64,000 nucleotides of DNA from Allacma fusca (taxonomy: Eukaryota; Arthropoda; Collembola; Symphypleona; Sminthuridae): assembly GCA_947179485.1 (NCBI GenBank), contig OX359249.1, forward strand, positions 50,045,402-50,109,401, read 5' to 3'. A model generated the notes under the pieces. It searched no databases and was not told the DNA's origin. It saw only the letters and a list, made by a program, of their open reading frames with translations. This document shows, one piece after another, positions 11,569 through 48,152 of this stretch (its first letter is position 1; each line of letters begins with the position of its first letter). The translations under genes and the position numbers were made by a program.

Positions 11569-12137
11569 TAAGGCTTCCATCCGACCGGATAAATCGAATA
11601 TCCGATCCGAATCCGATCCGAACCGAAATTTTCGGATAAATTTTCTTATCATCCGATCCGACCGTTACGGATCGGATAAAAATTGTATTCATCCGTATCC
11701 GGTCCGAAAATTTCGGATCGGATAAGTGCTGCTATCCGATCCGATCCGCGGATATCCGAAATTATCCAAATTGATACCATTGGATGATAATGGAAAAAAA
11801 TATTAGGAATTTTCACTAAAAAAAAGCGTCAGCTTTTTACTACATCAAAATATTAATCATTTTGCATACATTACAAACTGAATGAAAATATTACAAACAC
11901 AGCTGTAAAGAAGCACGGAATTAATGAGAAAACAAGTAAAAAGCCGCACAGTTACTCGTTGGACAAATTGTTGCCGTACATTTCGTTCTTATTGGTCGCT
12001 CGACCGCGCTAAAAATTTGATTTTCGGATATCCGTCGGATTATCCTATATTTATTATTTGTGATCCGAACCGATCGGATAAAGTCGTTTCCAAATCCGAT
12101 CCGAATCCGCGGATCATCCGATCGGATGGAAACCTTA
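11569..12137. mobile_element. hAT-type MITE, 569 bp, with exact 8-bp target duplication
   Basis: Ends are inverted: TAAGGCTTCCATCCGACC at 11569 and, on the other strand, TAAGGTTTCCATCCGATC at 12137, matching over about 22 bp with two differences. The flanks carry an exact CTACGAGA duplication (11561-11568 and 12138-12145). Both subterminal regions are packed with GGATCCGA-like and GATCGGAT motifs. No coding capacity. It sits in the 3' part of the LINE and is therefore younger than it. Confidence 0.9.
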
Positions 12138-12602
12138 CTACGAGACAGTCCAGTTTTTCAGGTTGGTTAAGAAGTGTTTTTGTCATTGACGCTGTAATGT
12201 AGGTATAGCGTTCAAAGACAGTTAATAAGCTAAATGTTTCATACATGAGGTATCTATTAGTATCAGTATTAGTCTTTCTAGTTTTACATTTTAATAATGG
12301 CCGAGTTGGAAAACCGTAGTGAAAACTGTAACCTTTACACAATAAGCATTTTAAGAAGTGATCAATCGTATTTTGACATTTCTGTAACAATATGTCAGAT
12401 ACAGCTCCCCATACAGGTAGTCCATAGTCAATGTGTGAAAACACAAGCGATTTGAATACAATATTCATAAGCTTTTCATTTATGAAACGTTTGTACTTAA
12501 CAAGTTGAGAGCATTTAAATGTAATTTTCTTGTTGACATTTGTGTAGTGTTTGTCAAAAGCGAGATTGCTATCAATATAAATTCCAAGGTATTTGAATAA
12601 TG

Positions 12603-13568
12603 CTACTTTCTCAACCTTTTGGTTGTTACAATTAATATGAGCAATATTTGCTCTACGTCTAGATCTTTTTTAAAGAATTCCATGAAATAAGTTTTAGAAA
12701 AATTGACTTCCATAGAATTAGTTTCACACCAGTCATTAATAATAGATAAATTACTTTCGAGAGCAGACTGTAAGGCCACAGGAGTAACCCCAGAGCATAC
12801 GGATCCTATGTCATCAGCATAGATTGCAGAATTATCCAATATTTTGCTGAGATCATTAAAAAATATTATGAACAAAATCGGGCCTAAAACACTACCTTGT
12901 GGTACTCCTCCATTTAGCTTATAAGGTTTGGAGATAAATGATCCCAATTTAATACAAAATTCACGTTCACTCAAGTAATTGCAGAACATTTGTATTAGAT
13001 AACCTGGTAAGTTGTATGTATGTATAAGTTTATGAATCAGTTTGCTGTATATAACACTGTCAAAAGCCTTTCTCAGATCAACGAATATAGCCGCAACATA
13101 CTTGTTATTCTCAAGAGCGCTATATATTTTGGTTTTTAGCTCTATCAGTGCATGCAAAGTCGATTTTAGTTTACGAAACCCAAACTGGTTTTTTGAAAGT
13201 AGATTATTCAGCTCCATAAACTTAATAATGCGCTTTGCAATAAGTGACTCAAATACTTTGGACAAGAACGGTAACACTGAAATAGGTCTATAGGAATTCG
13301 GGGCATGTTTTTTACAGTTAGGTTTTAGTAACGGTGTAACAATAGCACACTTCCATTCCTTAGGGTATATACCAGTTGTTAAGGCATTGTTATATATAGT
13401 GCATAAGATGGGAGCAAAAATGTCTGGATAAGCTTTAAATATTCTAGTTGGAACTCTCTTTAGACCTGCACACGAACTTCCTTTGGTTTTCCTAATAGTG
13501 GTAACAATTTCATCAATACCTATAGCCTCATACATATGTATTTGAGAGAACACCGTCTTCATTGCCAT
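12603..13568 (-). pseudogene. LINE reverse transcriptase
   Basis: Open over 321 residues. Recognised blocks: SYRPISVLPFLSKVFE (about 92-107), FVDLRKAFDSV (162-172, first catalytic aspartate), GGVPQGSVLGPILF (220-233) and YADDI (250-254, catalytic aspartate pair). These define a LINE reverse transcriptase, which copies the element RNA at the nicked target. The tail continues in another frame from about 12600 to 12138 (SHIDYGLPVWGAV), where the MITE interrupts it. Confidence 0.88.
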
Positions 13569-13971
13569 GGTCTAACACAAAAGCTTTTGCCAGTTCATCA
13601 GCTATAGTTTCATTATCACTAACAAGAGTATTATTTAACTTTAGCTCAGTAATGTTAGTGGAAGCAATTTTTGTTCCAATGAGCGATTTGAAAGTATCCC
13701 ATGACTCTTTTGATGTATTACATTTCTTAAACTTATTTTCATAATATTTAATTTTAGTGGCACGAATTAATTGGGTTACAATATTTCTATATTTCTTATA
13801 GTCAATCCATGCAGCAGGTGTCTTGAATTTACAAGCAATTTTCTTTAAATGATTCTTGCGATGAATTAACTTTTTAATTTCAGCAGTAATCCATTCATTT
13901 GGTCTGGTTGTAATACGTCTTTTTACAATGGGAGCAACGTTGTCCAATATACTTAATGTTAAGTTTTCCAT
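13528..13971 (-). pseudogene. LINE linker between endonuclease and reverse transcriptase
   Basis: 147 lysine-rich residues including WITAEIKKLIHRKNHLKK and the W-x-x-Y-K-x-x-R-N block common to LINE ORF2 between the nuclease and polymerase. A frame change near 13550 leads into the reverse transcriptase. Confidence 0.7.
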
Positions 13972-14073
13972 TACTGCAAGTTGTTCACAAGCATCATGAA
14001 AGTCTTCTATAATACACCATTTAGTATTGCTAAGCTCTGTTCTTAACTCTTCAACATCAATTATAATTTCTTG

Positions 14074-14849
14074 TCATAATGGTAACGGGGCAAAATGGAA
14101 TTTAGGTTTCTTTCTTATGACATACACAACATCATGATCAGATAGCCCACACTGAATTACACCCGAATCACATACATATTGCCTATTATTGCTATAAATA
14201 TGATCGATAAGTGTGCGCGAAGATAGTGTAATACGAATAGGGCTAGTAATTACTTGTACCATATTCAGTCTATTCATACAGTGAGAGAGATAAGAGGTGG
14301 AATTGCAGTTCTTAAGCAGGTCAATATTCAAATCGCAAGCTACGATAATCTCATTATACTGTGTGTACAAAGCATTTATAAGTTTAGTTATTTCAACTAG
14401 AAAATTATCTTCATAAACCAAATGACCAGGGGGTCGGTAAACATTAATAAGCACAAACGGTTTGCTACAAGGCAATTTCACTAATATGGTAATATTTTCA
14501 GCTGAGATCGTATCAATGGAAAGCACTTCAATAACAAAGTTAAGTTTAATGTATACATAAGAACTCCGCCACCATTCTTGGCACCTCTGTCTTTTCTGAT
14601 AAAACTATAACCAGGAATAGCTATTTCTCCATCAAGAGTGTTTTCATTCAACCAGCTTTCAGTGATACACATAATATCTACATTGTAATCATTCATTAGC
14701 ACACTAAGTTCCTCAACTTTTAATCTGAGGCTACATATGTTTAAGTGCATAATGACAAACCCCTTTTGGAAGTATTTGAAATTCGTACGATTGTAAATTC
14801 TTACAAAAGGTAGTGTTGAATTCAAAGAAGGAGTCATTGTTATTAGCAA
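14074..14849 (-). pseudogene. LINE APE-like endonuclease
   Basis: Two overlapping open segments. The first has MHLNICSLRLKVEELS, the N-x-C-S-L start of these nucleases, then DIMCITESWLNE with the catalytic T-E. The second has VLINVYRPPG, IVACDLNID with the D-x-N pair, and CGLSDHDVV near the end with the S-D-H active-site triad. The enzyme nicks target DNA to prime reverse transcription. A frameshift near 14520 separates the halves and a TGA at 14074 separates it from the following linker. Confidence 0.8.
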
Positions 14850-14869
14850 TGTCTTTTAGAAATGCAGAC

Positions 14870-15075
14870 AAGGCAGGAGTAGGAGTATCTTCATCACTTC
14901 TATTTGAACAGTTGGGACATTTCCATTTCCCTGTATCAGCAAGGGCTTTAAACTTCTTATTGTCTTGGAATAGTTTTAAGCATCCTGTATTATGATAGAC
15001 TGCATTACAAGAGCTACAGTGAATTGCTAATTTCGTACGATTTGCTTTTTTGCATATAATACAAATTTCACCAGT
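14870..15075 (-). pseudogene. LINE PHD-like zinc finger segment
   Basis: Minus-strand reading: C-I-I-C-K-K, then HCSSCNAVYHNTGC, then WKCPNC. The spacing C-x2-C ... H-C-x2-C ... H-x4-C ... W-x-C-x2-C matches a PHD finger. A stop lies just upstream, so the true start of the ORF is not visible. It runs on in one frame towards the endonuclease, which continues in the next frame from about 14760. Confidence 0.7.
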
Positions 15076-15603
15076 CCCTGCTTTTTAGTACATTCCTCCC
15101 TGACTTTTAGTCTAACGACTGACTTAGGTTTACTCAAAATTGAATTAAAGAAAGAAAATAGATAAACTTAGATTTTTAAATTAAATTAATTACAAATTTA
15201 AAGACTTGACTTATTGTCATCACTTACAAAGTTAAAGTAGCGTGTATATATGTAAGTATTCAGTTTTAAGAACTAGAGATCGGCTGGTTTCAGAACGAGA
15301 TGTTGAATGAAGGTAGTAGAGTCCACGACTGGAAAAGGCTGCATGGTTATATGTATTACCAGGTCATCCAAGGGGTTGAGGCCCAGATGTCAAGGTTCAC
15401 CGAACCTAGCAACCGTTACAGCTGGATGAATTCCAATTCACCGTGGCTTAAGGATCGCCAGAAACTACTTTAACTGTTGTGCACAGAGTGCATGGCTTAG
15501 GACCCAGAGAGCTTAGTGACCATTCTGCTCAGCAGTCAGAGTGGAAGTAAATATTGAGATAAGACTTATTCCGTAATGTGAAAATAGTTATGTTTATATG
15601 TAC

Positions 15604-16870: not shown

Positions 16871-17017
16871 TGTATACGTAAACAAAATTTAAAATTATTT
16901 TGTCCCGGAATGACGTTTCAAAAAAGTGGGAACCCTAATAATTAACCAAACGTCAGGGTAGTGTAACTGCACAGGTAAATGCACCGTGGAGCTTCCCTTG
17001 CCGATAACAGTTATGAC

Positions 17018-17437
17018 CAGACCTGAGCAACTGCTGGCAGGATTGAGCCTCATTGACGTCCCGAGATGAAGGGAGGTGGTACGCCTCAGACTATTTCTTA
17101 AATACGGGCTTTAGAGGCTCGGAATTGTTGCAAACTTGTTCACTGGCATATTAGCTTAAATTAATTTTTTTAAACCGATCGGGTAACATGATACCAGACC
17201 TGGTTTTGGCCGCTTAGAAATGCATTACTAGAGTTGTTGTATGCCGATATGTACCAAATAAAATGCGTTTGTGCTTAAAATCAAATCGAATTTTGGTAAC
17301 TAATGTTTCACCCCGGCATCCAAAACGGGCACCACGATGCCCGGAATGACCAAGCGGTTAAAATTTGTACCAAATTAACGCATTTATTTATTTTGGAGCA
17401 CGATTTTAATATAAATATGTTATTATTCCTGTGTCGC
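17018..17437 (+). repeat. Left arm of foldback element
   Basis: About 420 bp; tip CAGACCTGAGC. Nearly collinear, inverted, with 24380-24740 and 17793-17861. Confidence 0.88.
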
Positions 17438-17861
17438 CATCAAAAATCTTCAGTAAATTAAAAAAAAGGGAATTTGGATCACCAAGAGCTCCAAAAATGT
17501 TTCAATTCCTCACAATCCCAAACACATACAGCCTCATTGTACAGACATTATATACACTGTATATACACTGTACATACATTGTACACACAAAACTTTGTCA
17601 ATAGAATGTAACTGTAAACTTGTTTCAACTTTCAAATCATCTAATTTATGTAATGTTGTACTTCATGTAACAACGCTTCAAGACTTTAGAAGTTCATTTA
17701 CTGCGGAGTTACAACTTCCTTTTTTTAATTTACTGAAGATTTTTGATGTTTTTTTCAAGGTCCGGGTATCATGCCACCCGGGTACAGACATAGCGACACA
17801 GGAATAATAACATATTTATATTAAAATCGTGCTCCAAAATAAATAAATGCGTTAATTTGGT

Positions 17862-18210
17862 CGTGACATGCCCCTTTCGGGGGAATTATGGTATGTGCAC
17901 ATATGAGCCTGTGTGTCAATAATTAAGTATGTACGTAGATCAGGGAGCTACGAGAGGGGAAATCCGTAATAAGTGATATTTTATGCAGGGTAGTTTATGA
18001 TGTAAGTATTTATTATGTAACACTTGAGAGTTGATGTTTACACTAGAGCAAGGACACACAGACTCAGGATTCAGCTGTGAGCTGGGTTTATATACCCAGT
18101 GTGTTACCTACGAGGAGCGGGTAGCGAGGGAGTAAGATTATGAGGTGGCGAGTAACAATAAGCAGGTTATTATATACACTTAGTAAACTAGGGATTACAT
18201 GTATGCCACA
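17862..18210 (-). repeat. Downstream LTR (349 bp)
   Basis: Direct repeat of 24029-24375 at about 97% identity. Bordered on its inner side by a C-run that is a polypurine tract on the minus strand. Confidence 0.92.
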
Positions 18211-18634
18211 CCCCCACACTTACATAATACTCACGTCCTCGTGAGATAATTAATAAGTATGAAATATAACATTTATAATATAGCGTTAAATATTTATAAA
18301 CTCTATTGAGCAGGTATAATCTAATTTTAACAAATATTACTATTGAGTAAGTTTATAAGTAAATAAATTCAATGTATTTTAAGTATAATTAAGTAATAAT
18401 TCATTAGCTGGAAGAATACATCAGCGAGATAATATGAATGAGTAATGTTAAAGTAAATCTATATTTCTAAAATTCTAAAGTTCTAAAGCGAGATAATTAA
18501 TGTCGAGTCAATTGGGATTAATTAATTATATCGGGTCATAAGTTAACAAGAAAAAGAGCAAATCACTTTACTCACGTACAAAATACTAATTAATTTTAGC
18601 GGCGTTTCGGGTAAGGGCAATGATTCTTCATGTG

Positions 18635-19282
18635 TTATCGGCTTCCACAGTTGTAGCAACGGCGACCCTCAGAGTTGCTGGCCATATGTCCAACGTGAGT
18701 TAGATCGAGCCGGCACCGAATTGGTCTCGGTTGTACTGATTCTATGAGCGAGGTGTGTAATACTGGGACATCTGGAATGTCATAGTCGGATTCAAAATAA
18801 TCACGGGCTGCTGAATTTTCATAGACGAAATTTTGTAGTCGTAGCAAAGCATTTGCAATGCCAAATTGAGTTCCATGGAAATGGACTAGGCGTTCGTGAT
18901 GGCGGGGTTCGGACATGATTCCATCTATGTGAATTTGAACGTGGTACTCACTTTGAGCAGTTTGGACGTTGCAGCCTTGGTATCCTTCCAAGGGTCCAAC
19001 TAGCGGGGATGGAATTTTGAAGTTGACCCAGATTACCATGTTGTCATCGAGGGTCATGCAATAAGAATTTTCAAAGACTGGCAATGTTCTTCCGGAGTGG
19101 GATAAATAGGTGCGTTGCACGAATGTTGGGTTTTGATATGATGGTCCAGGTCTCGGCGGCTGAACAGGTGAGTGTCGGCTGGACTGAGAACCTGTAGATA
19201 ATGTCGGGGAATGAGCGGGTGGTTCCAGATCTTGTAAAGCAGGTAATTGCACAATAGAGATTGAAGTAGTGGTGGTCGTCAC
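18635..19282 (-). CDS. KH-domain protein with start of a zinc knuckle (LTR element)
   Basis: 215 residues. Residues 1-70 are Ser/Thr/Pro-rich. Residues 82-156 look like a KH RNA-binding domain: hydrophobic strand VIWVNFKIPSPLVG, the GxxG loop as G-Y-Q-G at 100-103, helix NVQTAQSEY, strand VQIHID, then ERLVHFHGTQFGIANALLRL, the closing strand and helix. At 209-212 is C-Y-N-C, the first half of a CCHC knuckle as in Gag nucleocapsid. Such a protein would plausibly bind element RNA. It is the last ORF before the polypurine tract. KH assignment is by motif order only. Confidence 0.7.
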   Translation of the reverse strand: MTTTTTSISIVQLPALQDLEPPAHSPTLSTGSQSSRHSPVQPPRPGPSYQNPTFVQRTYLSHSGRTLPVFENSYCMTLDDNMVIWVNFKIPSPLVGPLEGYQGCNVQTAQSEYHVQIHIDGIMSEPRHHERLVHFHGTQFGIANALLRLQNFVYENSAARDYFESDYDIPDVPVLHTSLIESVQPRPIRCRLDLTHVGHMASNSEGRRCYNCGSR

Positions 19283-20019
19283 TCGAGGAGCGGGCTTGTA
19301 ACGAGTTTAGTATCCAATGGTTCCATAACTACTCGAGGATTAGGAGTAGGCGGGCTTTTGCACGGTTGTTTAGCGGGTTTGTTTACCGTCGCTGATACAG
19401 TTGAAGTACGCTTCTGAGTCGTCGCTCTTGTTGTAGGCGGGGGTAACTTCGAAGTCTGTGCTTTCCCAGACGTGCCATTGGATTTACGGGTCATTCCGTT
19501 ATCCTTTGGTCGAGCTACAACCGGCTTGCTTTCCGTCTCATCAGATTTAGTTGATGGCGGGGGTGTTAAAATCACCGGAACTGCCGGGGCAGTTGAAGTT
19601 GTCGTAGGCGCTGTAGTTGTGACAGCGGAAGCCGTTGTAGGAGCAGGTATTGCTGGCGGGGTTGGATTGAAAAGATCAGACCGAGGTGTAATTACGGTTG
19701 ATACGGAAGACCTTGAGGAGTTGGACAAACGATCACTTATTCTGTGGTAGATGTCTGAAGCAATTCTGGTGGCGATGTTACTGCGATCTGGTATGTTGTA
19801 ACTAGATTCAAGTAACATGTTGGCCATGTTATACATGTCGAGCATTTCTTCAGCCCAGCGAGTGATTCGGATGGCGATTTGAGCGATGTCATTGATCTCT
19901 GTGGTGAACAGCAGGATGAGTAGGAGTTCGGCAAATCGGCTGGTAAATTCACTGAGCTTCTGTAGAAAGTTTTCTCTGGGGTCCGACACTTTGAATTTAA
20001 AACATTCAATTTTAAGCAA
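19279..20019 (-). CDS. Helical N-terminus plus Thr/Pro-rich tail ORF (LTR element)
   Basis: 246 residues. The first 90 are helical with hydrophobic heptads (LQKLSEFTSRFAELLLILLF, then RWAEEMLDMYNMANMLLES), which could be a Gag-like or oligomerising region. The rest is low-complexity Thr/Pro/Ala. Its stop overlaps the start of the next ORF by four bases, an arrangement consistent with linked translation. No family recognised. Confidence 0.5.
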   Translation of the reverse strand: MLKIECFKFKVSDPRENFLQKLSEFTSRFAELLLILLFTTEINDIAQIAIRITRWAEEMLDMYNMANMLLESSYNIPDRSNIATRIASDIYHRISDRLSNSSRSSVSTVITPRSDLFNPTPPAIPAPTTASAVTTTAPTTTSTAPAVPVILTPPPSTKSDETESKPVVARPKDNGMTRKSNGTSGKAQTSKLPPPTTRATTQKRTSTVSATVNKPAKQPCKSPPTPNPRVVMEPLDTKLVTSPLLE

Positions 20020-20130
20020 ATATAGGTAATTTTTGTAGGTGTGATAGTGAGCTCTGGCAAGATAATATAATTTATGGAAACAGGGGTTGACTGACTTTAG
20101 TTATCTGGCTAAATTATTTAAATTAAGTGA

Positions 20131-20418
20131 CTATTCTATGACTACTGTAGGACATTTAAGCTTAAACCTATCAAGTAGTTCTAAAAATAAACTAAGGCGA
20201 GTTTTCAGGACATTGACTTTTCCTTCATAAATTAACTCTAAAAATAGCGAGAAAATATTCTGGAGAGTGTATTCTGGAAAGGCGAGGTCAGTGCTCGGGA
20301 CTTGAAGAATTTCGTGGAAATAGTTCGATGCCGCGGCAAGGACGCATCTGTCTGCCTTGGTGGACCCATCTTGAAGATGAATCCGTACATTTCCAAAACG
20401 TAACTTTGAATAATACAT
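20131..20418 (-). CDS. BTB/POZ domain protein of the LTR element
   Basis: 95 residues making almost exactly one BTB domain: VRIHLQDGSTKADRCVLAAA (positions 11-30), SNYFHEIL (31-38), then LAFPEYTLQNIFSLFLELIY (45-64), EGKVNVLK and LSLFLELLDRFKLKC. This follows the BTB plan of a beta strand with buried Ala-x-x-x-Val-Leu-Ala, Tyr-Phe, a Leu-x-x-Ile-Tyr-x-Gly hinge and a final helix. BTB domains form homo- or heterodimers and recruit partners such as Cullin 3. Finding one between LTRs is unusual; capture from a host gene is the simplest explanation. Confidence 0.75.
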   Translation of the reverse strand: MYYSKLRFGNVRIHLQDGSTKADRCVLAAASNYFHEILQVPSTDLAFPEYTLQNIFSLFLELIYEGKVNVLKTRLSLFLELLDRFKLKCPTVVIE

Positions 20419-20840
20419 GGAATGTACTGAAATAATGCGGGTAAAAAAATGAAATAAAAAGTGTAAAATCTCTAAAGTAGGCTAACTATAGACAGGAATT
20501 AATATTAGCGTGTGATATATAAACAAAAATAAAGGTAAGTAACTATAATTTGAGGAGTAGGGTTAGCAAGGAACTAAGTAATTAAATATCAAAAGGAATA
20601 TATAAAAAAAATATTATTTACTTATATACATAGCTACGATCCTTAAAATTAAGAAATAATGTACTTACTATTGTATCAGGTTCGGCACTACAGTTAAGCG
20701 AGAATACCTTAATTACCACTAGGAATTATTTAAGCGAGTTAACTACAGCGAGTTAAACTACTAATGTAAGCAAATATAAATCAAAAATTCTACAAAATTT
20801 AACAAAAACCTTTTGGCAGGCTTCGTGAAGTCAGTTTTCA

Positions 20841-21410
20841 CTATTCTTGGTCACTGTCAGTGGAAGAATGACCGGTGATAAATTCCGGCTCAGTTGCACT
20901 GAAGGTTCGGCTTTGCCGTCTTAGCAGGGAAGCGTGCATCTGGGCGGAGAGTCTGCGAGTACTTCTGGGAGCTTCTTCTGGTGTATCTTCTCCATGTTCT
21001 GGAGAAAAAATAGTGGCTTCTGTGTCCATGAACTCTTCGGGTGGGACAGAAGGGGAAGCTTCTGTTGAGCTGGACTCCATTGGCTGGTCAGGAGGGGACA
21101 CTTGACGTGACCCAACTGTGAAGAGGGGTTCATCCACACATTGCTGTGGAGTGTGCTCCATGGGCTGTATAGCTAACCAGGGCTTTGGAGTTGGAGTGGG
21201 TATAGAAAACACTGCAGGAGGAAGATGTATTTCCTTTAACAAGGTTTGGGGTTTTGCAGGTATAACTTTCGGCAGTGTGAAGGCTTTCGGGGGGACTACT
21301 GAGTAGTCCTGGAATTGCATAGACAGGGCATCTCCAACGGGCCATGTGACTATCTCCAGTTCATTATCCTTTGATGGCTTGACTTTGTATTGGTAGCGTT
21401 CATAAGTCAC
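20841..21410 (-). CDS. Proline-rich ORF of the LTR element
   Basis: 189 residues: a short structured-looking start (YERYQYKVKPSKDNELEI), then Pro-, Ser- and Glu-rich sequence ending in an acidic tail. Mostly disordered by composition. No recognised family; it starts about 12 bp after the preceding ORF stops. Confidence 0.45.
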   Translation of the reverse strand: MTYERYQYKVKPSKDNELEIVTWPVGDALSMQFQDYSVVPPKAFTLPKVIPAKPQTLLKEIHLPPAVFSIPTPTPKPWLAIQPMEHTPQQCVDEPLFTVGSRQVSPPDQPMESSSTEASPSVPPEEFMDTEATIFSPEHGEDTPEEAPRSTRRLSAQMHASLLRRQSRTFSATEPEFITGHSSTDSDQE

Positions 21411-21422
21411 GGCGGGACGTCA

Positions 21423-21815
21423 CTACCGTGGAGCGGGTTTTGATGTTGCGGGTAATGTCTTTTTGGCGGGTAATTTACTTTCGGTAGTTTTGACCGGCGC
21501 TGCTGTTTTTACTGTAGCACTTGTTGATGGTTGTGTACTATCAGTAGGAAATTCACTAATAGTAGATTTTAACTTTTTCTGTTTAGCAGGTAAATGACTG
21601 TCTGCAGGTTGTTTTATTTGTCTTTTGCGGGTTTCGAAAAATTGTTTATAGTCTTTTCGAATTTCACCTCTAGGGCGAAGTCTACTTCTGATGGGAGTGG
21701 ATCTGGCGGGTGTCTTTTTAGCTGAATAAGTTTGAATATTAGAAAAATTTGCACTAATATTTGGCTGTGTTAATAGCGTGGACTCTACCGGAGGTAGTAC
21801 ACTTTCTGTAGCCAT
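21423..21815 (-). CDS. Basic Ser/Thr-rich ORF of the LTR element
   Basis: 130 residues rich in Lys, Thr, Pro and Ala with a basic patch (RSRLRPRGEIRKDYKQF). Probably an RNA- or DNA-binding or disordered region. No family recognised. It follows the integrase by about 55 bp on the same strand. Confidence 0.45.
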   Translation of the reverse strand: MATESVLPPVESTLLTQPNISANFSNIQTYSAKKTPARSTPIRSRLRPRGEIRKDYKQFFETRKRQIKQPADSHLPAKQKKLKSTISEFPTDSTQPSTSATVKTAAPVKTTESKLPAKKTLPATSKPAPR

Positions 21816-21869
21816 CTCCTCCTCCTTGGGAATGTTAGGCGGGTTAGGATCGGAGACTGGAGGTTGTAC

Positions 21870-24028
21870 TTAAATTTCGGGTGCCTCCGGGGAGAGCATT
21901 TCATGGTCTCTAGCAGGACCTATGGGAGATTCAAAAGGGGGAATTGAGTCATTATAAGGGGCACTGGGAGACGCACCTTCTGGAGTCGTAACCAGTGTAG
22001 ACTCAAAATCTAGGGTATCTTGGGAGATATCTTTTCTAGGTGAGCGGGATTCTGCAGAGCTCGGGGAATCGAGTAATGCAGAGATGCTGTCGATGATATT
22101 TTCAGCAAATAAATCAGGTGAAGGGATTTTCTCAGGAACTGTTCGTTTCTCGGGTTGTGAGGTAGCTAACATTAAACAGTCGGGGCAGGTATGGTGGTCT
22201 TTGGAATGAATTTTGTCCATCAAACGATTTGCTAATGTCTCCGTGTACATTATTGCTTGTTGACGGTGTTTTCGCATGTCGGTATTATCGGGGTGAATGG
22301 ATATTTTGTCCAAACTTATCTGGATTTGACCCAACATAGCATTGATGTTCCTAAATGCTTGGGTGATGTGTACATCAGAATATTCTTGTACAAGGGTGTC
22401 CATGGTTTGAATTTCTTTCATCAGCGGGGCAATATTTGACATTATTGCATAGTTCTCTGAATTTTTCCATTCAGTGATAGCAGGTTCTTTATAATAATGA
22501 CAAAATGGGTGAAATAAGCCTAGGCAGGCACATCTTGGGACTTGACAATATACAGTTGTTGATGTGCCAGGGCGATTTCTAATAAATTCGCGGAAGAAGT
22601 TCCATTCCCATTCTGTTGCTCGGGATATTCTGGCTTCCACAAAATCTTTTGGTGAACATTCGGGTTCCTCCAACTCTCGTGGAAGTCCATTTTGCGGGTC
22701 ATATATAAAGCAGTGAGGGTGCATGTATCCTTCGCAGTCCTCATCTGTGCAACGGTAAGTTTCAATTTTGTCATAAGGGAATTTATACATTTCCGTACAA
22801 TTGTGTACGAAAGTATCAAGTTCTTCTTCGAGGACCCAGTCACCAATTTGATACGAGTAGCTAGTTCGTTTCTGGTTGAAGGCTGCATCCCTCTGGAGCT
22901 GCTTCTTTCGGGAGAGTTCCGCTGCAATTTTAAGGGCTTCGTTAATTGCATCTTGATTGTCCTCTGGAGATTTAGGAAGTATTGGGTTGGCGACTGGAGA
23001 AATTAAGTCAGCCTTAAGGACAGGTTGTCTTCCGTGCACCAAATAATATGGTGAATAACGGGTAGCCTCATGTATTTTGATGTTATGCGAGAAAGCTGCG
23101 TGGTGAGCGAGTGAGTCCCAAATATAGTGTTTACTCGGGACATCGAGGAATTTTCTCACGTAGGTCTTGATGTCGCGGTTACTGCGCTCTACTATTCCGT
23201 TGGATTGAGGGGAATGGGGCATCACCACGACATGTGGAATGCCATGTTCTTTTAAGCTGGCCTTGAATGAGGCACCTGCAAAATGGGTACCTCCGTCCGT
23301 AACTATTTTTCGGGGCCATCCGTGGTTGTAAAGGACGTGTTCTTGGAGAAGTTCCCAAGAGTTCATAGCGGTGGCTGTCTTAGTGGGTATTATAATCAAG
23401 TAGCGGGACGCGTAATCAATAATGACTAGTGCGTATTGATTACCTCGGGGAGTTTTAAATAGCGGGCCAATATAATCCATAGCTATAGTGTCAAATAGCT
23501 TGGTGGGTGTTGGAATTGTTTGGCGTTTGCCCAGCGGGAATTTATTGCGGGCATTTTCACGCTGGCAAATGTCACAGCATTTTGTATATTTAAAAATATC
23601 ATCACTCATGCGAGGCCAATAGTATCTTGTTCGGATGAGCGAGCAGGTCTTATAAAAGCCTCCGTGACCTGCAGCGGGGTCGTCGTGCATAAGTTTCAGA
23701 ATTTCACGGCGTAAAGGCAAAGGTACCACAAGCTTGTATGGAGAGGCGCTCATGTTTGCATCAATACGATATAATAAACCATGTAGTAGGCAGTAATTAG
23801 TTCCGAAAATATGCGGGTGTTCTGACGTATCTCCGTTTTTGTGCAGGTCTTGAATTATTTTGAGTAGTTTCGGGTCTTGTTTCTGTTTATCAGCGAATAG
23901 CGAGATGTTACCACCAACTGTATGCTGTATTAGTTGGTCCTCTTTCCCAATGTCTTCTGGAGAGGAGCGGGCTATTGCATACCTTAGTTGTAAAAAAGTT
24001 GCTAAAAAATACCCGGCGCCTCCACCAA
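21870..24028 (-). CDS. Integrase with C-terminal paired Cys/His modules (LTR element)
   Basis: Residue numbers count from an ATG inside the LTR. An H-H-C-C zinc domain is formed by H134, H141, C171 and C174. The catalytic core has D204 (AMDYIGPL), D264 (IVTDGGTHF) and E300 (NGIVERSN), a D-D-35-E arrangement of Ty3/gypsy integrases that inserts element DNA into chromosomes. After it come two similar small modules, YRCTDEDCEGYMHPHC and YCQVPRCACLGLFHPFC, each C-x4-C then H-P-x-C, which I do not know from gypsy integrases; they may bind zinc. The last 150 residues are acidic and Ser/Pro-rich. It lies directly behind the LTR, an unusual place for integrase. Confidence 0.85.
24011..24027 (-). other. 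tRNA primer-binding site
   Basis: The plus strand reads ACCCGGCGCCTCCACCA, which looks like a tRNA 3' acceptor end with its CCA. The element's minus-strand RNA would therefore pair with that tRNA to prime minus-strand DNA. It lies one base inside the LTR, as expected. The tRNA identity was not determined. Confidence 0.8.
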
Positions 24029-24375
24029 TGTGACATGCCACTTTCGGGGGTATTATGGTATGTGCACATATGAGCCTGTGTGTCAATAATTAAGTATGTA
24101 CGTAGATCAGGGAGCTACGAGAGGGGAAATCCGTAATAAGTGATATCTTATGCAGAGTAGTTTATGATGTTAGTATTTATTATGTAACACTTGAGAGTTG
24201 ATATTTACACTAGGGCGAGGACACAGACTGAGGATTCAGCTGTGAGCTGGGTTTATATACCCAGTGTGTTACCTACGAGGAGCGGGTAGCGAGGGAGTAA
24301 GATTATGAGGTGGCGAGTAACAATAAGCAGGTTATTATATACACTTAGTAAACTAGGGATTATATGTATGCCACA
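24029..24375 (-). repeat. Upstream LTR (347 bp)
   Basis: Begins TGTGACATGCC and ends TATGCCACA on the plus strand. Contains a TATATACCC box. Direct repeat of 17862-18210. Confidence 0.92.
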
Positions 24376-24379
24376 TGGT

Positions 24380-24740
24380 ACAAATTTTAACCGCTTGGTC
24401 ATTCCGGGCATCGTGGTGCCCGTTTTGGATGCCGGGGTGAAACATTAGTTACCAAAATTCGATTTGGGATTTGATTTTAAGCACAAACGCATTTTATTTG
24501 GTACAAATCGGCATAAAACAACTCTAGTAATGCATTTCTAAGCGGCCAAAACCAGGTCTGGTATCATGTTACCCGATCGGTTTAAAAAAATTATTTTAAG
24601 CTCCTAATATGCCAGTGAACAAGTTTGCAACAATTCCGAGCCTCTAAAGCCCGTATTTAAGAAATAGCCTGGGGCGTACCACCTCCCTTCATCTCGGGAC
24701 GTCAATGGGGCTCAATCCTGCCAGCAGTTGCTCAGGTCTG
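24380..24740 (-). repeat. Outer part of right arm of foldback element
   Basis: Inverted match to 17018-17375; separated from its inner part (17793-17861) by the LTR element. Confidence 0.88.
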
Positions 24741-24748
24741 GTTATGAC

Positions 24749-30100: not shown

Positions 30101-33100
30101 ATCACGGTGAGAGTAATCTGCTGCAAAATCAGATTATTTGCTACAGATTAAGTTATTCTGCTACGGATTCAGTTATTCTGTTACAGATTCAGATATTATG
30201 CTTCAAGAATTTATAATTTTGCTAAAAGAAAATTTGCTGTGAAAACAGATTGGTATTGTTGCAACATTAATATTTTCCCAATCTAATCTCATACATTCTC
30301 TCAAAACATATTGAGCATTACTTGTTCATGTTGTTGCCTCTTTTCAACATCCGCAGTATTGGCGAATAAACTTATCTTCTGATCAACCGTTCCTGGTTTT
30401 GGTTTCTCATCCTCAGATTTTTCCGGACCTCCACCATTCTCACGACGCTACAATCAGGGATAATTCACCATACATTTATTCATAACCACAAATCACAACA
30501 TTCATTCACAGCACGGATCACATATTAATTAAATATTTTTTGAGTGCAAAAGCTGTTTTTCACCTCAACTCTTTTTAAAATCTCTTTATGTAATGCCCCA
30601 GCCAATGTATTCATAGGATTGTGGGTAATCTCGGGGGCAGGTGGCTCGGATGTCGACTTCTCAGTTATCGTCACAGGTTTCAAACTGGTTTTCAGCATTT
30701 CTAGTTGTCGCTTCTCAGCCTAAAAGATTATTATATTGTTTTAACGATTGATTTGTTGTAATGCATAGACTAGAACTCATTAGATGCTGTGATAGCAGAC
30801 CTGTAGCAGTGACCACCTATGCAAACAAAAATTCTAAGCAGAATTATTTGGGGGGGGGGGTTATTGCCATAAACAAATAGAAATTGATTTAAATGAAATT
30901 ACTTGAAAACGCCTCTTCTCTTCCTCGAACTTAACAGCTTCCTCGAGAAGACGACGTTGGTCGTTTAACAATTTCTTTCGCTCCTCCAAAAGCCTCTTCT
31001 CTTCTTGGTTTTCTGCGATCCGACTTGAGGAAACAATGGTATTGGATTTTACAGTCTCTTCTTCCGCTCGGATCTGAATTACAAGTCTTTCATTTTCGGC
31101 TTCTTTCCAGGATTCTTCAACTTCATTCCATTCAATATGACGGTCGAGGACAATGCCGTCTCCATCGCTATTGATGGACCTGAGTATTTAAAAAAAATCC
31201 CGTACATGATACAAGGGCACATTTTATACGAAAATACCCTAAATATCCACTGTAATTCAATCTCATAGTCGTCAAATAAGTTTTATGTGTATACTCTTTG
31301 GATGACGGACGTCTTTCTTCAGATACCAAAGGGAGACGGCCTTGTCGGTGATCTTCCTCTCCGTTAATTTCTATGGGATTATTAGAACTAGAAGAGATGC
31401 TGGACACCGAAATATGCGTATCTCCATTCAGACTGCTAGCTGAACTGTTGTAACCACTAGATTCACCCGGGAAAAGGTCAGATGCGGCTCCCTTGATCAC
31501 CACCAAATCCAGATGCTTGCTTACTTTCAAATGATACACGGCCTGCAATAAAATTTCAGAAAATATTTTCCCTGTGACCAAAAATTTGTGATGCCGACAA
31601 TCCTCAAAAAATCTCGACTTTGCTTCACGTTCTGGAGGATTGTGACCTCATTTTTTGACCTATGACTATAAAACAAATTTGGAAAAATCTAGACAAGAAT
31701 TTGCTTCAAAATTGGGGGAATGGAATCCCATATTTTATGTTGTTGTCCGTTATGGAATAGCGGGGGATGGGTGGCGGGGGAAGAAAAAGGGTATGAGACA
31801 CCCTGTAGATTGTTGGGGATTCCTCCACATAATTCCCATCTCAAACAGACTTCAAAGAGTGGAGATATGGCTGGGAAATGTCCACTGAAAATACCCTGAA
31901 ATTTTTTCCCGCTCAGCTGAAAATGCCTGCTCAGCTTACTTGCCCAATGTTATCACAGCTTTTGAAAATGCCCTGTCTTTGGGCATTCTGGGCAGCACAA
32001 GCTGGACATTTAGGAAATTATCATGGTTCAAATTCTTTTTAATAGATAATGAAAAACATTACTCTGAGCACAGAAATTGAATTAATAGCTTAATTCAGCA
32101 TATTCAATCAAATGTGTAGGGGAGCAGGGAAGGAAAAGAAGCAAATGTGAAAGTCCGGTTCCCTACTTATGTTCGTTAATATGTTATAACTGCGGAAACA
32201 ATGGCTGACTATTAAATTTTTTCTCAATGACAGGGGGTACGAGATAATTTATTACCTTCGTGAAAATTAATCTCTGTAAATATGCAATATATTCATAGGT
32301 TTATATGCATATGTACAGAATGGAGGAATTACGTCGTCTATAGTTTGAAAAAAAATCTAGAATTTAATTAATTGCGTTGTCATATCACACAAACGTGTAC
32401 AAGTTTAACAAAATGTAATGTTCAATAGGAGTTGCGCAAGCAAAGCATATTTCCTCTAAACGACTGAATTAACTTGCATTCGACAACATCGTGAATCGTG
32501 ACATACACAAACTTTAAAAATTATTAAATAATGCAGAATTTCGTAAACTGTTTTCATACCTCGATTCATATCACTAATTATTAGCTCCAAACTCGGTGAT
32601 GATTTTAAATTTACAATTAGAATCAATGAAAATGAAGACTTCAAAATAACTGTTATGAATGACACTGCGACATAAATCGGAAATAATATCGCTCAGCAAT
32701 GAAAATGACTGCCATGGATTTTCCGAAGGTTTGTCCTCTAAAAGTACCAATCCATTTTTTCAAATTGACTGTGAAACTACATAAATTATTCTATTCGATT
32801 CTACGATTATTCCCTAAAATGCTCTCGACTGAAACTGTTCAAAATGTGCTATTTTGCCTTGAATGTCCAAAATGCATTTTCATATCGACATACCCCAGAT
32901 ATACCCGCGGCCGACACTCTACCTTAGCTTACCCCAAATGGGGATATTTACAGGGGAATTTTATATTGGATTTCCAGGGACCTCTCAGCTGTGTAATATC
33001 TTCAAGAAAAATTGAAAGCTTCGCCATTATTCAAACATGCAAAGTCGTTGTCTAATCTACTTTTATGAACCCACGTGAAGCATTTAGCCCCCTGTGACAG

Positions 33101-36100
33101 CGTTACTATTTTCTATAGAATATGTACATGTATACACATGGTTTTCATATTTTTATATTAATTAATCTCTTAATATAAATTTTAGGGACTCATGGGCGCC
33201 GGCACGGGAAAAATCATATATTTTGCCGGGTTACCACTGGGAAACTGAACAATTAATGTAATCATGACAGCTACCTCAAGAAAATCTTCAACAAAGTAAG
33301 CAATGGGTTATTCTCTCAGGCTGTACTCACATAAAGATTGTTCCGCCCATAAGCATAAATTTGCTGCCCGTTACGGAAGAACCAATCACTATAAACCCCT
33401 TCTTACAGAAGAAAATTTCCAGCCGCCAATCACTTTAATTTTATTAAATTCGAGAAAAAATTCTTCCGGATCAGGGATTTTATTTATGATTTGACGGAAA
33501 GGACGATTCATGTGAGTACACCCTGCTGAGGGCTCCTGAGGAATGAGGAGGGGTCGCCCAGTCTTTTGGTATTCATGTGTACATAAATTTTAAAAGCGCT
33601 AGACGTTGTTTAGCCTCTGACTTTAATGGCTCCCGTATGCACTGATAAGCCCTCTTTAAAGTACTACTTCATAGTTTTAAAATCCTGGGGTATCGATCAT
33701 GAAATGAGTTGAGTTGTAACTCGTTACTAATTCTTCGTAAAAATGGAATGAAAACAACCAAATCAAGACAAAGTGAGTTTTCATTATTTAACGAACTCTG
33801 AAAATTGTAATGACTTAATGATCTAGTAACAATTTGGCTAAAGGTCAAAATTCCAAGCGGCGTATGTAGTTTGTTCCTACAGATTACACGTTAGCATCTG
33901 TACGGTTATTTTTTCAGGCCTTCAATTTGTTTCAAACCCTAAAAGGCCCATGTGATAAAAGTAATTAAAAATGAGGAAGATAAAAACAGAGCAAATCAAT
34001 TGTAAGAATTATAACCAGTAGCGGAACAAGTTACATGTGGGAGCCAACATTAGAAAAAAAATTAGTTTTTCCCTGATAATTATTATTGTGAAGACCAGTG
34101 TTTTCACGAGGCGTGACGGCATGTTTTTGCAGAGGAAGAAGAGATGCGGAAAACAATGAAATCTTACATTCATTCATGGGCATGCCCTTAAGAGTAGTTG
34201 AATGCAAAGGGTAGCAAATATATACATGAGAAATAGCTGAATGAAAAAATATATCTTACTTCGGCAAACGGAATATTTAGAAATGAATGACCGTTGCACT
34301 GAATGATTTGATCTCCAGGTCGAAGGCCAGCTTCTCGAGCTACCCCGTTAGATTTGGTTGACTGGACAAATATTCCTGGGCGCTCAGGAGGTCCTTTACA
34401 AATACTGCAATCAAATTTAAAGAATCGTTTAGCATGCCAGCATATATTCGGATTTACAATTTATAATATGAACTTTTACTAAATGGAAAAGCAAAACTCA
34501 GAATCAGGCCTTAAAAAGCATGAAGGTATTTTCGATGAGAAAAACAAATAATGAGGAAGGAGGAAGCAAAAGCTGTTTGATTGATAGCCACGCTGTGTGG
34601 AGATCATCCATCATATCATCTTCTGGGTCAATTACTTTACAATGAATCTAACCTATAATGCCATACCAATTAAAAGATGTTCCCTTTACCCTTATTAACG
34701 CAATGCCTAATTAACACAACGTTGATTTTTACAGTGTTCCTCATTTTATCATCCTTGTACAAGTAAGAATTAAAACGTGTAAATAGGTACCTGACATTCT
34801 TTTATAAGGTTGAAAAATGCAGAGAGTAATTGTCTTGACAACTCCTTGCCTTCTTACTTATGCACACGCAGTGGAGATTGGAGATGCTTTTGTAAGACAT
34901 TGTAAATACAAAGCGCTCCTCAACCTTATGCCACTAGTTCCAGCTTAATTATAGCATCCGAGTAAATTTTATTTTGAATACAACTTTGTAAGTAGATTAT
35001 GATTTGTTGTGGAGTGGACAATTTTAAGGGAAGCAGATACAATAACTATTGAATAATTTAATTAAGTGTTAGGGTAATTCTCGTCAACACTCTCCACAAT
35101 TAAAATATATGACACAGATAACTACTTACATATGCTGATGTACTGCTACATGACTGAATAAAAAATTGTTTAAAGTCGAAAATCCCTGCAATCAATTATT
35201 CAAGTGCGTGAGAATTGATTTCACCTAGAAGGGCACCATGAAATATTAATTGAAGCTCATAAAAATGCGTAGGCAGATCCCAAGCTCACAAATACACAGA
35301 ATTTTTCTATTTCACTAAAAAATAAAACTCCTTTTCTATTCCTTCAAATCCCACTAGTAATCAGAGCATCGATTGAGTATTAGGGTCATTATTGAGCGAG
35401 CCAGTCCATGAGTCTTTGAAATGAATTTGTTCTTTTTATATCAATAATATATTTGAACTTATTACAAGTTCAAAGGATATCCTGCACCAAGTGCCACAAT
35501 TAAAGCCCACACCTGAATTTGACTCTTCAGCTATTGTACATACAACTAAGAAGATGACAAGATGTCTTAATTATGTATTGTTAGAAAGTTAATCAGCCAT
35601 TTAATTCAAATTATATTAATATATCATGCTGCTAACATTCTCATAGTACGTACATATTGCAATGAGGGGGTTGTGTGTACAGGGTTTCCTACATCCCTTT
35701 CCTTCCCCTAGCCCATATAATCCCATATAGGGGCTATAACAGCACAAAATATATGAGACCCCCATTTCGAAGCAAATTCTTTTCCAGATTTTGCAATTCA
35801 GCTTTCCAAGACTTCCCTACGTTGAGAATTGTGAACTTGACCCTCAAGAATAGAGAGCAAGGTTGTGGAAATTCATCTTCAAGAGCAAAAATGCGGAAAA
35901 GGTGTTTCTGATCTCATCATATTTTCACAGACGGTCTGTCGAACGTAAAAACATTTCAAGAAGCTGAATTTGCAGTAAATTTGATGGGGATTCAGACTGA
36001 GGCAAGATTTAAAGTTTATGAATTAGTTTAAAACGTTGCCATAAAAATAAGCTTTTTTCTTTCCTTCAATCTTTCCTCATATTGTTACGTCCTGAGACAT

Positions 36101-45100: not shown

Positions 45101-48100
45101 CAAATACTTGAAGATTAAAATTCTAATGGATTCTAGAGATGTGTAATAAAATAGCATTGAGGAAGAAATAAGTTTCCTCACGTTATTGGTTTGAGCAGGG
45201 CAATAGGATATAAGTCACCCTGTAGGCACAGACACAGGTGGTAGTAGGGAAGGAAAACTCACAACTTGCATTGACTACCTAGTAAGAGATGCAATAATAA
45301 GAAATAATCACGCATATTAATGAGCCATCACATAGATGACCATTAACGCACGTTTCATTATAGCCCTCAACGTTTTGAGCAGATGAGAAGCAATCTTGTT
45401 TCGCTTACTGCTTCAGTGAGTGAAATTTTTCCACAGTTCTGAGTTCTGACGGACTGCCATCATCCAGGCTTGTGACCGTTAAGTACTGGTGCATCAACTA
45501 CACTTAATACTACACGATGAGGATAAACAACGCCTTGTTGGGAGATGGAAGTTGAGGTGGAGAGTACACACATCGCAATATGTAACTTCAGACTCAGAAT
45601 CGTATCTATAGGTATAGATATAATTTCATATGTATGTACATATGTAATGTACACACTACTGATGATGAGGTGATTTCTTCATAAACTCTCCCTCAGCTGT
45701 TACTGCACTATGAGTGGATTCATGTACTTTCCCGAAAGCCTGGCAAAATAAAAATATATCTACTGATGGGCACTTGTTCATAAAGCCCGAGACTATCACC
45801 CACCTTCGTTCAAGTTAATTACACGGAGTCAAAACCAAGTATGCGTAAAATCTACGATTTATATCAGTTCCATGTGTACTGTACTCTGTAAATTGCTTAA
45901 CGGAACTCTTTCAAAATCAACCAGAACCAGATGGGTTTAGAATCGTGAGTAATGGGGTATATGCACTATGTACTAAATCTACAGACTTCAGTTCCTACCA
46001 GTAGCCATCTTTACCCATTTCATTTTTTATTTCCTAATTTACCAGCGCACATCATTGGTTCATAGATTCCAAATCACAATTCCCTTGTCTATTTCTGTAA
46101 GAACTTGTGTGTGAATCCCTTGTATGTACATAAGTATATATATATATATATATATATACATGCGTAATGGAACATTACATGAGGGATGAATAGGAAGACA
46201 GCCTTTCTTTGTTCTCATGGGGGGACTGAATTTCATACTTGATTGAACTTTTCTCACGCGTATTATTATACAGATATACAAGAAATCTACTTTCCTGTAT
46301 TTTCCATGCAAAAATGTAAATCTACGCGCCTTGCCAATCGTTTCAATGTAATTATGGACTGGACTGATGATATAATTTATGTTGAAACTGAAAACCACAT
46401 CATTTCAAGGAAATTTTCACATGCACAAAATGTCAGAAAATTATCGCCTATCTCCTCACAGAATCTTAGAACGGTTGTAAACAGAGAAACTATTCCCCAA
46501 TCGTCGTTCCTATGACTTCTTAGCATTATAATACAGTGTACAAAGGTATGATGAAACTCTAATCTATCCCAAAGAGTAAAGCAAACTCGCATATGTGACT
46601 GTAGGATGACAGTGAGAAAAAGCGTCAGGACTAATTTTTACATTACTGCATTATTTCTAATAATTACACACTTGTACTTCTCGTGTTTTCTAATATCGTC
46701 ACAGAATTATGCTCGAATATGTGGTTATATTATATATGTAGATACACATGTACTTACAACGTGAACGACAATACATTCATAATTTTTTGATTTCACTCTG
46801 TTTACATAAGCATACTCATTCTAGATAGCTTTCATCCCCTGATACTTCTGAAAGTGTTTGCTCCTACAGATATTGTGTATATATTACTTTTATGCCAACT
46901 GTGTTCAATGGAACTAAAAGGAAGCAAATGTTGTGAATGATGATGAAAACCCCAAGACATGTCCTCAATGATTCTTTCATACTTGAAAGTTAAGTAAGGA
47001 GGAAAAGTTACACGATAGTAGCACAAGTATCTACACTTTCAGCATATACACTGTAAATAGAAATTTAATTGCCCGTGGATTCCCCACAAGTAACTTTAGA
47101 AACTTGCATAATGAAAAGATATATTTACTTTACTGTTGAAGAATGACTGCGATGTAAACCACAGAATTATTTTTGCGTATTTACCTTGAAACATAAGCAT
47201 TAAGCAGAAAATAATCCCAGCTGAAGGGACCGCTACCGTTACATATATTCGTTTGTCAATTCTAATGTTTCTATAGTTGATATTTATAAATTACAACAAA
47301 CTTGAGAACATTAAAAAAACAGGCTGCAATATAAAAACAACAGTTCAAGAATAATTCAAGTCGAACTCTCTCATTAAGATCAGAAGTGTGTATCGCGTGG
47401 GTAAGTTTACATGTACAAATACTTACTATACAATCAATAGTGTGATGTCCCAGAGCTTGATGTAATTATTCATGTAAACAGTTGCTTTTAATTGAGCAAT
47501 CATCAGCCGCACTGTTACTCACTAATACTCAGAGCACCTACGGGTACGATACCAGCTTGTGTCTGTCTTAGCCCAATACTGGTTCATAACTACAGTAACT
47601 ACATATCAAATGGAGAGATACGGATCAGAATTCCATCGGAAAATGTTTTTACAAATGTTGCAAGTTACTATGAATTAAAACAATAATATTATTATTAAAT
47701 GTAATTATATATAAATAACTAAATTAAATATTTACTTACTTCTAACTTTTAATCGAAGGCTTGTACGAAATCTCATGAGGGCCAAGCACTCATTGTGAAC
47801 AGCCGCAGAAACAGGAAAACCATTGAGGCGGAGTATTTGATCACCCACCTGAAATAATGTGTGTGCATTTCATATCAAATTACAGATTAATATGCTTATA
47901 AATACTGATTTAAAATCAAAGAGTTGAGGAAGGAAATGCCAGCGAAACAATACGCAAAGAACATAATATTAGATATATTTACCTTCAACCTGGCTTTATG
48001 AGCCCAAGACCTTGGCTCTACATGCGAGACGAAAATTCCAGTTCCATGCTCATGTCCTCCTCGAACGGAAAAACCAAAGGGCTCTTCGGGGATTTCTCTT

Positions 48101-48138: not shown

Positions 48139-48152
48139 GTTTTTTGTTAAAT
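47983..48152 (-). CDS. USH1C: Harmonin exon 1: start codon and first half of PDZ1
   Basis: ATG at 48138 opens MESYSRIRSVKLKRE, then FGFSVRGG (carboxylate-binding loop) and GIFVSHVEP. An acceptor (ATATTACAG) at 48153 means at least one upstream exon. The 14 bases before the ATG are open in frame, so coding could begin farther upstream, but no harmonin N-terminal domain exon was found to the right. Confidence 0.92.

Follow-up and report, generated by a model that had tools for sequence, protein, structure and literature searches.

A dispersed sense-strand word and BTB and KH genes in a gypsy-type retrotransposon lineage of Allacma fusca

How long terminal repeat (LTR) elements choose their own RNA, and avoid the RNA of their relatives, is poorly understood. 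Single-stranded RNA viruses carry dispersed packaging signals, many weak stem-loop sites for the capsid protein spread over the whole genome. The element described here is an LTR retrotransposon at positions 17862–24375 of a 64,000-nt stretch of Allacma fusca DNA (contig OX359249.1), called the window below. All coordinates are window positions, and the sense strand of the element is the minus strand, read from 24375 to 17862. Its lineage resembles those viruses in having many sites that could serve the selection of self RNA; here the putative site is a linear word in an LTR element.

Bdelloid rotifer LTR retrotransposon families carry additional 3′ open reading frames (ORFs; ORF3) (PMC5408684), and plant aORF elements are LTR elements with extra ORFs (PMC7264820). 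The present lineage shares with both gag-pol plus additional ORFs, a conserved non-gag-pol ORF lying between pol and the 3′ LTR. It differs from them in its BTB and helical-KH-knuckle genes, in a Pol extension at least about 1000 residues long and in its dispersed sense-strand word. Gmr1-like gypsy elements have the integrase upstream of the reverse transcriptase (RT) (PMC3587641). The window copy looks alike in this respect, whereas in L039, half of a full-length copy, RT comes before integrase. Sirevirus motifs are also many short copies in an LTR element; they are located within the LTRs, ahead of the env gene and close to the 3′ LTR, and have either a symmetric CGG-CCG core or a form like the polypurine tract (PPT) (PMC2829016). 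They differ from the present word in location and core. In VANDAL elements the targets are element-specific and differ between relatives, with co-evolving readers; the VANC protein is placed at non-coding regions and its targets are often tandem repeats (PMC5735166). The word described here is found on one strand only, dispersed through coding sequence in all phases. Neither an LTR element with BTB and KH nor a dispersed sense-strand word was found in the literature searched, the coverage of which was limited.

From the sequences, we are inclined to think that the window element is a deletion copy of a gypsy-type lineage, and that a word in the RNA of this lineage would be read by a multi-site protein that marks the element's own RNA for packaging.

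A sense-strand word in the element and its copies

The word CYCGC was found by k-mer counting on element strands. It occurs 50 times on the sense strand of the window element, as 29 CCCGC and 21 CTCGC dispersed over 17862–24375, and its reverse complement does not occur. With one LTR dropped, 47 words stand against 8.5 expected, a count that none of 500 dinucleotide shuffles reaches. The ORFs hold 39 words, where synonymous codon shuffles give 15.0 and none of 300 reaches the count. A very tight shuffle, dinucleotide plus synonymous, gives 31.1 for the same 39 words (0 of 200), and for CTCGC alone 9.1 against 11 (38 of 200). All three phases, the LTR and the untranslated gaps are occupied, evenly over nine segments (chi-square p 0.73) and with no regularity of spacing. 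The 57.5 kb of the window outside the element hold 22 words on one strand and 27 on the other.

From the genome, a 393-Mb assembly of 91 contigs, six other copies were retrieved as LTR pairs in halves, giving 12 pieces; L039 and L040 are the two halves of one copy. Each copy carries 83–91 CYCGC, which makes 518 in 68,263 bases, where the reverse complement occurs 3 times, and one LTR (L031) holds five. Six of the 12 pieces were examined by shuffling, and each lies above all 200 shuffles, about 6–10 words being expected per piece. The RNA of the lineage has about one word per 85–130 nt in sense orientation.

The orientation of the words bears on whether a DNA-binding protein of the element or the host recognizes them on double-stranded DNA, as happens in VANDAL/VANC anti-silencing. 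Related elements with differing targets are known in that system (PMC5735166). Double-stranded DNA sites need not share an orientation, but here 518 words face 3, and they lie throughout coding sequence with no regular spacing, which makes such sites improbable.

Three other gypsy elements of the genome are not enriched, with 3, 3 and 5 CYCGC per 2.6 kb, where the window family has 18 and 17 in that length; two of them are 66% alike and thus only partly independent as controls. Their top words have z of 4.0–5.2 only. In control windows ATCCG reaches z 9.5–10, mostly from a clustered array near 11.6–12.1 kb. The window has an ATCCG/CGGAT array on both strands at 11570–12125.

Among the one-base neighbours of CYCGC, a clear excess is seen only for CCTGC (17 against 5.7) and CCCGA (19 against 6.8), and a weak one for CTCGA (10 against 4.4); the others lie at expectation, below it or not distinctly above it. 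A mutational or editing bias could have made the words without selection, and it would fit the fact that some raised words (CCCGC, CCTGC, CCCGA) are one step apart and that C exceeds G on the sense strand. We regard this explanation as very improbable, however, as dinucleotide and synonymous shuffles fall short of the count, and most one-base neighbours agree with expectation or lie slightly under it, so that no single class explains the gain. Word bases are also slower at synonymous sites, and lineages of one genome differ in their word.

The slower change was measured at four-fold sites of gag and pol, matched by gene, base and CpG state. CYCGC bases change there 0.53 times as often as matched sites (bootstrap 0.37–0.74), the median over 82 words being 0.97. 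These tests of synonymous change used five of the six 3′ pieces, L036 being left out with its frame broken there. Words exact in all copies amount to 39 of 85 for CYCGC; other NNCGN words give 116 of 435 (p 7e-4) and G+C-rich words 496 of 1547 (p 0.012).

Sister lineages and candidate readers

Relatives were compared under the labels A for the window family, A′ for L049, L050 and L061, B for L052 and L056–L059, and C for L051 and L060. The 4-kb pieces L049 and L050, 80% identical to family A, hold 31 and 32 CYCGC against 5.7 expected, and the 4-kb piece L052, about 70% identical to A, holds 28 against 4.9. Of 26 aligned CYCGC positions, L052 and L039 have 11 in common; the number of words is kept while their places turn over. 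The near-copies of L052 (L056–L059) and L061, which is near L049, again carry CYCGC. L055 has 5–11 CYCGC per kb over 5 kb and then 0 in 2 kb.

L051, also about 70% identical to family A in DNA, has CYCGC at background (2 against 2.9 expected). It carries CCAG[AC] 54 times against 12.2 expected, with one reverse complement. The one-base neighbours of CCAGC in L051 are near expectation, ACAGC being slightly raised (9 against 4.6). L060, 95.6% identical to L051, has 36 CCAG[AC], 0 reverse complements and 1 CYCGC. The whole L051-type element, counted in three pieces and bounded by identical 340-nt LTRs, has 129 CCAG[AC] against 1 reverse complement. The initial 1 kb of gag contains 9 of these words, the 3.5-kb extension ORF 55 and the 1.2 kb following it 9; outside the element there are 2 in 2.9 kb.

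Synonymous shuffles separate the two words. The pol of L051 has CCAG[AC] 48 times against 18.8 and CYCGC once against 3.8, whereas the pol of L039, L049 and L052 has CYCGC 25–30 times against 7.6–10.8, with CCAG[AC] near expectation (L049 16 against 11.0, 9 of 200). Of 18 CCCGC words of L039, 8 align to CCAG[AC] of L051, compared with 9 of 86 other words that are one step from CCAG[AC] (p 0.0017), and the proportion is similar for L049 (7 of 17) and L052 (6 of 15). A third word is perhaps [AT]CTCC, seen in one copy only, the decayed distant relative L047 (C1:34027000-34032000); ACTCC occurs there 26 times against 7.4, dispersed, with 3 reverse complements, and TCTCC is also raised (20 against 9.7).

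We suggest, more tentatively, that sister LTR retrotransposons in one genome may have orthogonal sense-only RNA address codes, in which word and own reader co-evolve and which are switchable (CYCGC to CCAG[AC], perhaps [AT]CTCC) while the Pol core stays about 77% alike. If this is true, self-recognition by LTR elements becomes directly testable with short oligonucleotides, and the dispersed word provides a sequence-only handle on the co-evolution of element and reader. A protein that binds many sites at once would read the word, either on RNA or on single-stranded minus cDNA. Its binding would tag the RNA of its own element to be packaged into that element's particles, and a shift in reader specificity would have driven the change of word between lineages.

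The likeliest candidate reader is the nucleocapsid knuckle of Gag, because a word is still present in copies and lineages that lack KH and BTB. The knuckle starts with C-Q-Y-C in A, A′ and B and with C-L-Y-C in C, a difference that matches the word over the single switch seen. The Pol extension, in which B and C are each about 50% like A, has to be kept as a candidate as well. The KH-knuckle protein might be a second reader or a helper where it is present. The closest solved domain to the window KH is that of hnRNP K, a weak match (0.034), and hnRNP K is a reader of C-rich RNA.

Gag and Pol of A, A′, B and C were compared through the representatives L039, L063, L062 and L053. Over the capsid region, Gag similarity is 0.83–0.90 between A and B and 0.71–0.78 between A′ and C. 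Pol groups A with A′, and the word groups A, A′ and B against C. The Gag capsid types are shuffled against the Pol types among the four, as by recombination between subfamilies.

A number of results weigh against a selected word with its own reader in the element. The capsid type does not track the word, since A′ pairs with C and yet uses CYCGC; the capsid, whose types group A with B and A′ with C, is thus unlikely to be the reader. The Gag knuckle also differs between A and B, which use the same word. Five of the six copies have lost nearly the whole KH gene, and most of BTB, and still carry CYCGC, which weakens the KH protein as a reader in cis and shows that it is not needed there. Among distant KH-bearing relatives, L046 and L048 are not enriched in CYCGC, and L047 is weakly raised (12 against 7.2, 10 of 200 shuffles). 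CCAG[AC] is in lineage C mainly an interior feature: unlike CYCGC it is absent from the LTR (0 in 340 nt), and the leader has 2. In synonymous slowness CTCGC and CCCGC rank 10th and 11th of 82, not first, and many of the words ranked lower or near them overlap the motif or its variants. A differently weighted synonymous test, with column-weighted values against row-weighted class means, gave no effect (+0.007), and exactness in all copies does not separate CYCGC (39 of 85) from its anagrams (148 of 393, p 0.18). Predicted accessibility shows no clear direction: word sites reach 0.225 and, once their flanks are shuffled, 0.161, with 26 of 50 sites higher; the corresponding values for control words are 0.181 and 0.244.

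These points leave room for a host RNA-binding factor that reads the words for export, splice suppression, stability or escape from silencing, sister lineages using different factors. The strand bias suggests RNA or another single strand without specifying a reader from the element, and no element protein examined tracks the word cleanly. Unspliced retroelement RNA must also be shielded from splicing. Against a host factor, the three other gypsy elements under the same host are not enriched and have only modest top words, and the words of the sister lineages are mutually exclusive. We consider it unlikely that a host factor is the reader, though by no means negligible.

Full-length copies and accessory genes

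The LTR search of the genome gave 40 scored matches of 69 candidates, many of them paired 10.8 or 12.1 kb apart. The six full copies are 11.2–12.4 kb long, the L039/L040 copy being the one of 12.4 kb. All six have a leader, a gag ORF of 470–475 residues and an overlapping pol ORF, and are 92–98% alike across this part. Their LTR pairs show 0 substitutions in 347 positions in six of six cases, one pair having a 2-nt gap; judged from these substitution-free pairs, the lineage is recently active. In L039 pol, Pfam finds RVT_1 (1.9e-27) and RNase H (5.5e-36), with H2C2 and rve downstream. The protease match of L039 is weak (0.011, below the Pfam cut-off), as is the Retrotrans_gag match of its gag (2.9e-4, below the cut-off), in which a CCHC knuckle can be read. 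The order gag, protease, RT, RNase H, integrase is found in L039 by Pfam and in five more copies by colinear ORFs, and the window copy departs from it because of its deletion.

The window copy has LTRs, integrase, extension and 3′ end in common with the six copies at 88–92% identity. Its first deletion, of about 4.6 kb between the primer binding site (PBS) and the RNase H-integrase linker, removed gag, protease, RT and RNase H. The second, of about 1.3 kb behind the integrase, includes a stretch that weakly resembles MLVIN_C in L039. Among 40 scored matches of 52 candidates, the window copy alone covers the first junction in full. Of the remaining 39, 31 match on the integrase side and 8 on the LTR side, and they end at or near the junction; relatives on the integrase side match at 69–83%. 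By its sequence, the window element is a decayed, doubly deleted copy of an ordinary-order Ty3/gypsy-type element, the Ty3/gypsy-type assignment being made from domain order and integrase matches only. The lineage may be undescribed, as set apart by literature descriptions rather than by a repeat library or an RT tree.

The integrase-first order reported in an earlier note on this DNA holds for the window copy, but it is not a trait of the lineage; it arises from the 4.6-kb deletion, found in this copy only. The Gmr1-like affinity proposed there is contradicted by RT and RNase H upstream of the integrase in L039 and by the same gag and pol ORFs in the other five copies. That the lineage is Gmr1-like, or otherwise truly integrase-first, as the gene order of the window copy would have it, was rejected and has next to no probability, with RVT_1 and RNase H ahead of the integrase in L039 and the junction confined to the window copy. 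The note had also set against its own reading other copies with ordinary gag-pol order and neither BTB nor KH. The ordinary order was found, and so were copies lacking the two genes, but copies with both genes exist too.

Of the two domains that the note had called non-standard, BTB is real and KH probably so. BTB matches Pfam at 2.2e-9 (37.9 bits) in the window and at 49.3 bits (6.5e-13) in L040, above the cut-off of 20.5. KH_1 scores around its cut-off of 21.5, with 21.2 bits (2.5e-4) for the whole of ORF6, 22.4 (1e-4) for the fragment 18638–19051 and 16.7 in L040. L039/L040 alone of the six copies has the BTB ORF and an uninterrupted ORF of 480 residues, which in L040 consists of helical, Pro/Thr-rich, KH (0.0063) and CCHC (9.4e-4) parts, both domains being below cut-off. 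In the five other full copies BTB is mostly gone and the KH ORF almost entirely so, and a remnant of the BTB end persists in them at 77–79% identity to the window. BTB and KH genes are not required in cis by every copy, because copies without them look equally young by their LTR pairs.

Against the genome, the 480-residue protein matches 24 stretches, of which 5 are full-length uninterrupted ORFs and the remainder are broken copies, the window's included, and distant relatives (26–52% identity). Between the window and L040, dN/dS is 0.43 for BTB, 0.23 for ORF5 and 0.13 for ORF6, and between the window and L039 it is 0.07 for the integrase, each value being a single pairwise estimate from one decayed and one open copy. 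L025 and L040 differ over 369 codons by 9 synonymous changes and 1 nonsynonymous change. L046 carries the Pol extension (42%), BTB (36%) and KH (26–54%) in the same order as the window family. L047 carries the Pol extension (34%) and KH (36%), with no BTB match, and L048 only KH within the 4.3 kb examined. Neither BTB nor KH was matched in L054 or L055. By all indications the BTB and KH genes are old in the lineage and under selection, and a lineage of LTR elements in which BTB and KH-knuckle genes are maintained by selection extends the range of accessory functions known from such elements.

Age and selection bear on the capture of host domains, which the note had offered and which would make the locus a non-autonomous element with recently acquired host BTB and KH exons. 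The window copy does lack RT, and its BTB resembles animal BTB zinc-finger proteins in a search of solved structures, the closest sequences being a BTB zinc-finger protein (1.1e-4) and Kaiso (1.1e-3); a host progenitor gene was not searched for. Of the three distant relatives examined, however, two have the extension and KH, and one of these BTB as well, in the same order. BTB, ORF5 and ORF6 are under purifying selection, and CYCGC is as dense in the frames of the BTB and KH genes (7.5–11.4 per kb) as overall (7.6). Recent capture was rejected, as distant relatives carry the module in the same order, and is extremely improbable.

In L046 (C10:63831800-63837800, minus sense) one ORF runs on into the Pol extension, with the BTB and KH genes of the lineage behind it; the part ahead of the extension presumably resembles a Copia-type Gag. 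The 3′ module may have moved between element classes. Two KH loci of the L046 type lie 14 kb apart.

For a possible subgenomic splicing of BTB, the leader donor ranks by splice-site matrix 3rd of 271 GT and the acceptor before BTB 21st of 342 AG. Structures modelled from the single sequences of ORF5 (pLDDT 46, with four helices) and of ORF6 (pLDDT 38) had too little confidence for use in a structure search. No env-like gene is among the Pfam matches on the 3′ ORFs of L040, a search dedicated to transmembrane or env proteins not being made. Outside the genome, a protein search with ORF1 found 8 proteins, and in the two compared the integrase sits C-terminally; a protein search with the KH ORF found no relative. 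Scans of viral contigs with ORF1, ORF6 and two ORF1-relative proteins, and of prokaryote genomes with ORF1, confirmed no relative.

Anatomy of the window copy and its surroundings

The LTRs, PBS and PPT described in the earlier note are all present on the minus strand, on which every feature of the element lies. The 3′ LTR occupies 17862–18210 (349 nt) and the 5′ LTR 24029–24375 (347 nt), which differs from it by 11 substitutions and a 2-nt gap. The part of the PBS common to other copies is at 24018–24027 and the PPT at 18211–18223. The target site duplication is 4 bp, TGGT, at 17858–17861 on the left and 24376–24379 on the right, as read from the empty site in an arm of the host inverted repeat (reverse complement of 17010–17440). 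LTRs, PBS, PPT and short target duplication are those of a Ty3/gypsy LTR retrotransposon. The host is an inverted-repeat (foldback) element of about 1.2 kb, at 17010–17861 and 24376–24748, which retains the empty site. The LTRs closest to those of the window are L003 (96%), L004 (95%) and L005 (91%); by BLAST with the window element, neither its PBS side nor its PPT side adjoins them, as in solo LTRs.

The first deletion junction holds a filler of about 26 nt at 23992–24017, by eye in part an inverted copy of the leader. ORF1 (21870–24089) encodes a stub of the RNase H-integrase linker, the integrase and a Cys/His-rich Pol extension. Its Integrase_H2C2 domain lies at 23550–23726 (Pfam 4.2e-22) and the integrase core, rve, at 23208–23483 (8.2e-9). 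The DD35E spacing was judged from the sequence by eye, and the closest solved sequence is the PFV integrase (3.1e-23). The second junction, where about 1.3 kb is gone, is at 22829–22830. ORF2 (21423–21869) continues the Pol extension in the frame of ORF1 behind one stop, and ORF3 (20841–21419) continues it in the same frame behind two stops; the three are one frame broken by stops. Paired C-x4-C...H-P-x-C motifs occur in the Pol extension, at about 22446–22784 of ORF1 and in L040 polC. The Cys/His stretch has weak sub-cut-off matches to YdjO (0.0015) and PHD_NSD (0.0066), and there is also a weak BAG-like stretch.

The BTB ORF (20131–20481) has 116 residues, the domain lying at about 20152–20397. 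ORF5 (19279–20100) is the helical and Pro/Thr-rich part of the KH gene, parted by a frame change from ORF6 (18635–19306), which holds the KH domain (about 18833–19021) and the start of a zinc knuckle. This start, noticed in the earlier note, is present and is broken by a stop: the CCHC knuckle at 18620–18661 has an internal stop codon, and uninterrupted copies of it exist. The note had also recognized no polymerase, and Pfam agrees, the six ORFs scanned giving no match to RT, RNase H or protease. The two larger stretches free of long ORFs, about 360 and 420 nt, are too short for RT, and such a copy would be mobile only with help.

Elsewhere in the window, a non-LTR retrotransposon lies on the minus strand at 12040–15084, recognized by eye from RT-like and endonuclease-like ORFs and a Cys-rich PHD-like ORF. 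Exon-like ORFs occur on the minus strand at 30861–34460 and 47896–48189, with PDZ-like sequence, perhaps from a harmonin-like host gene.

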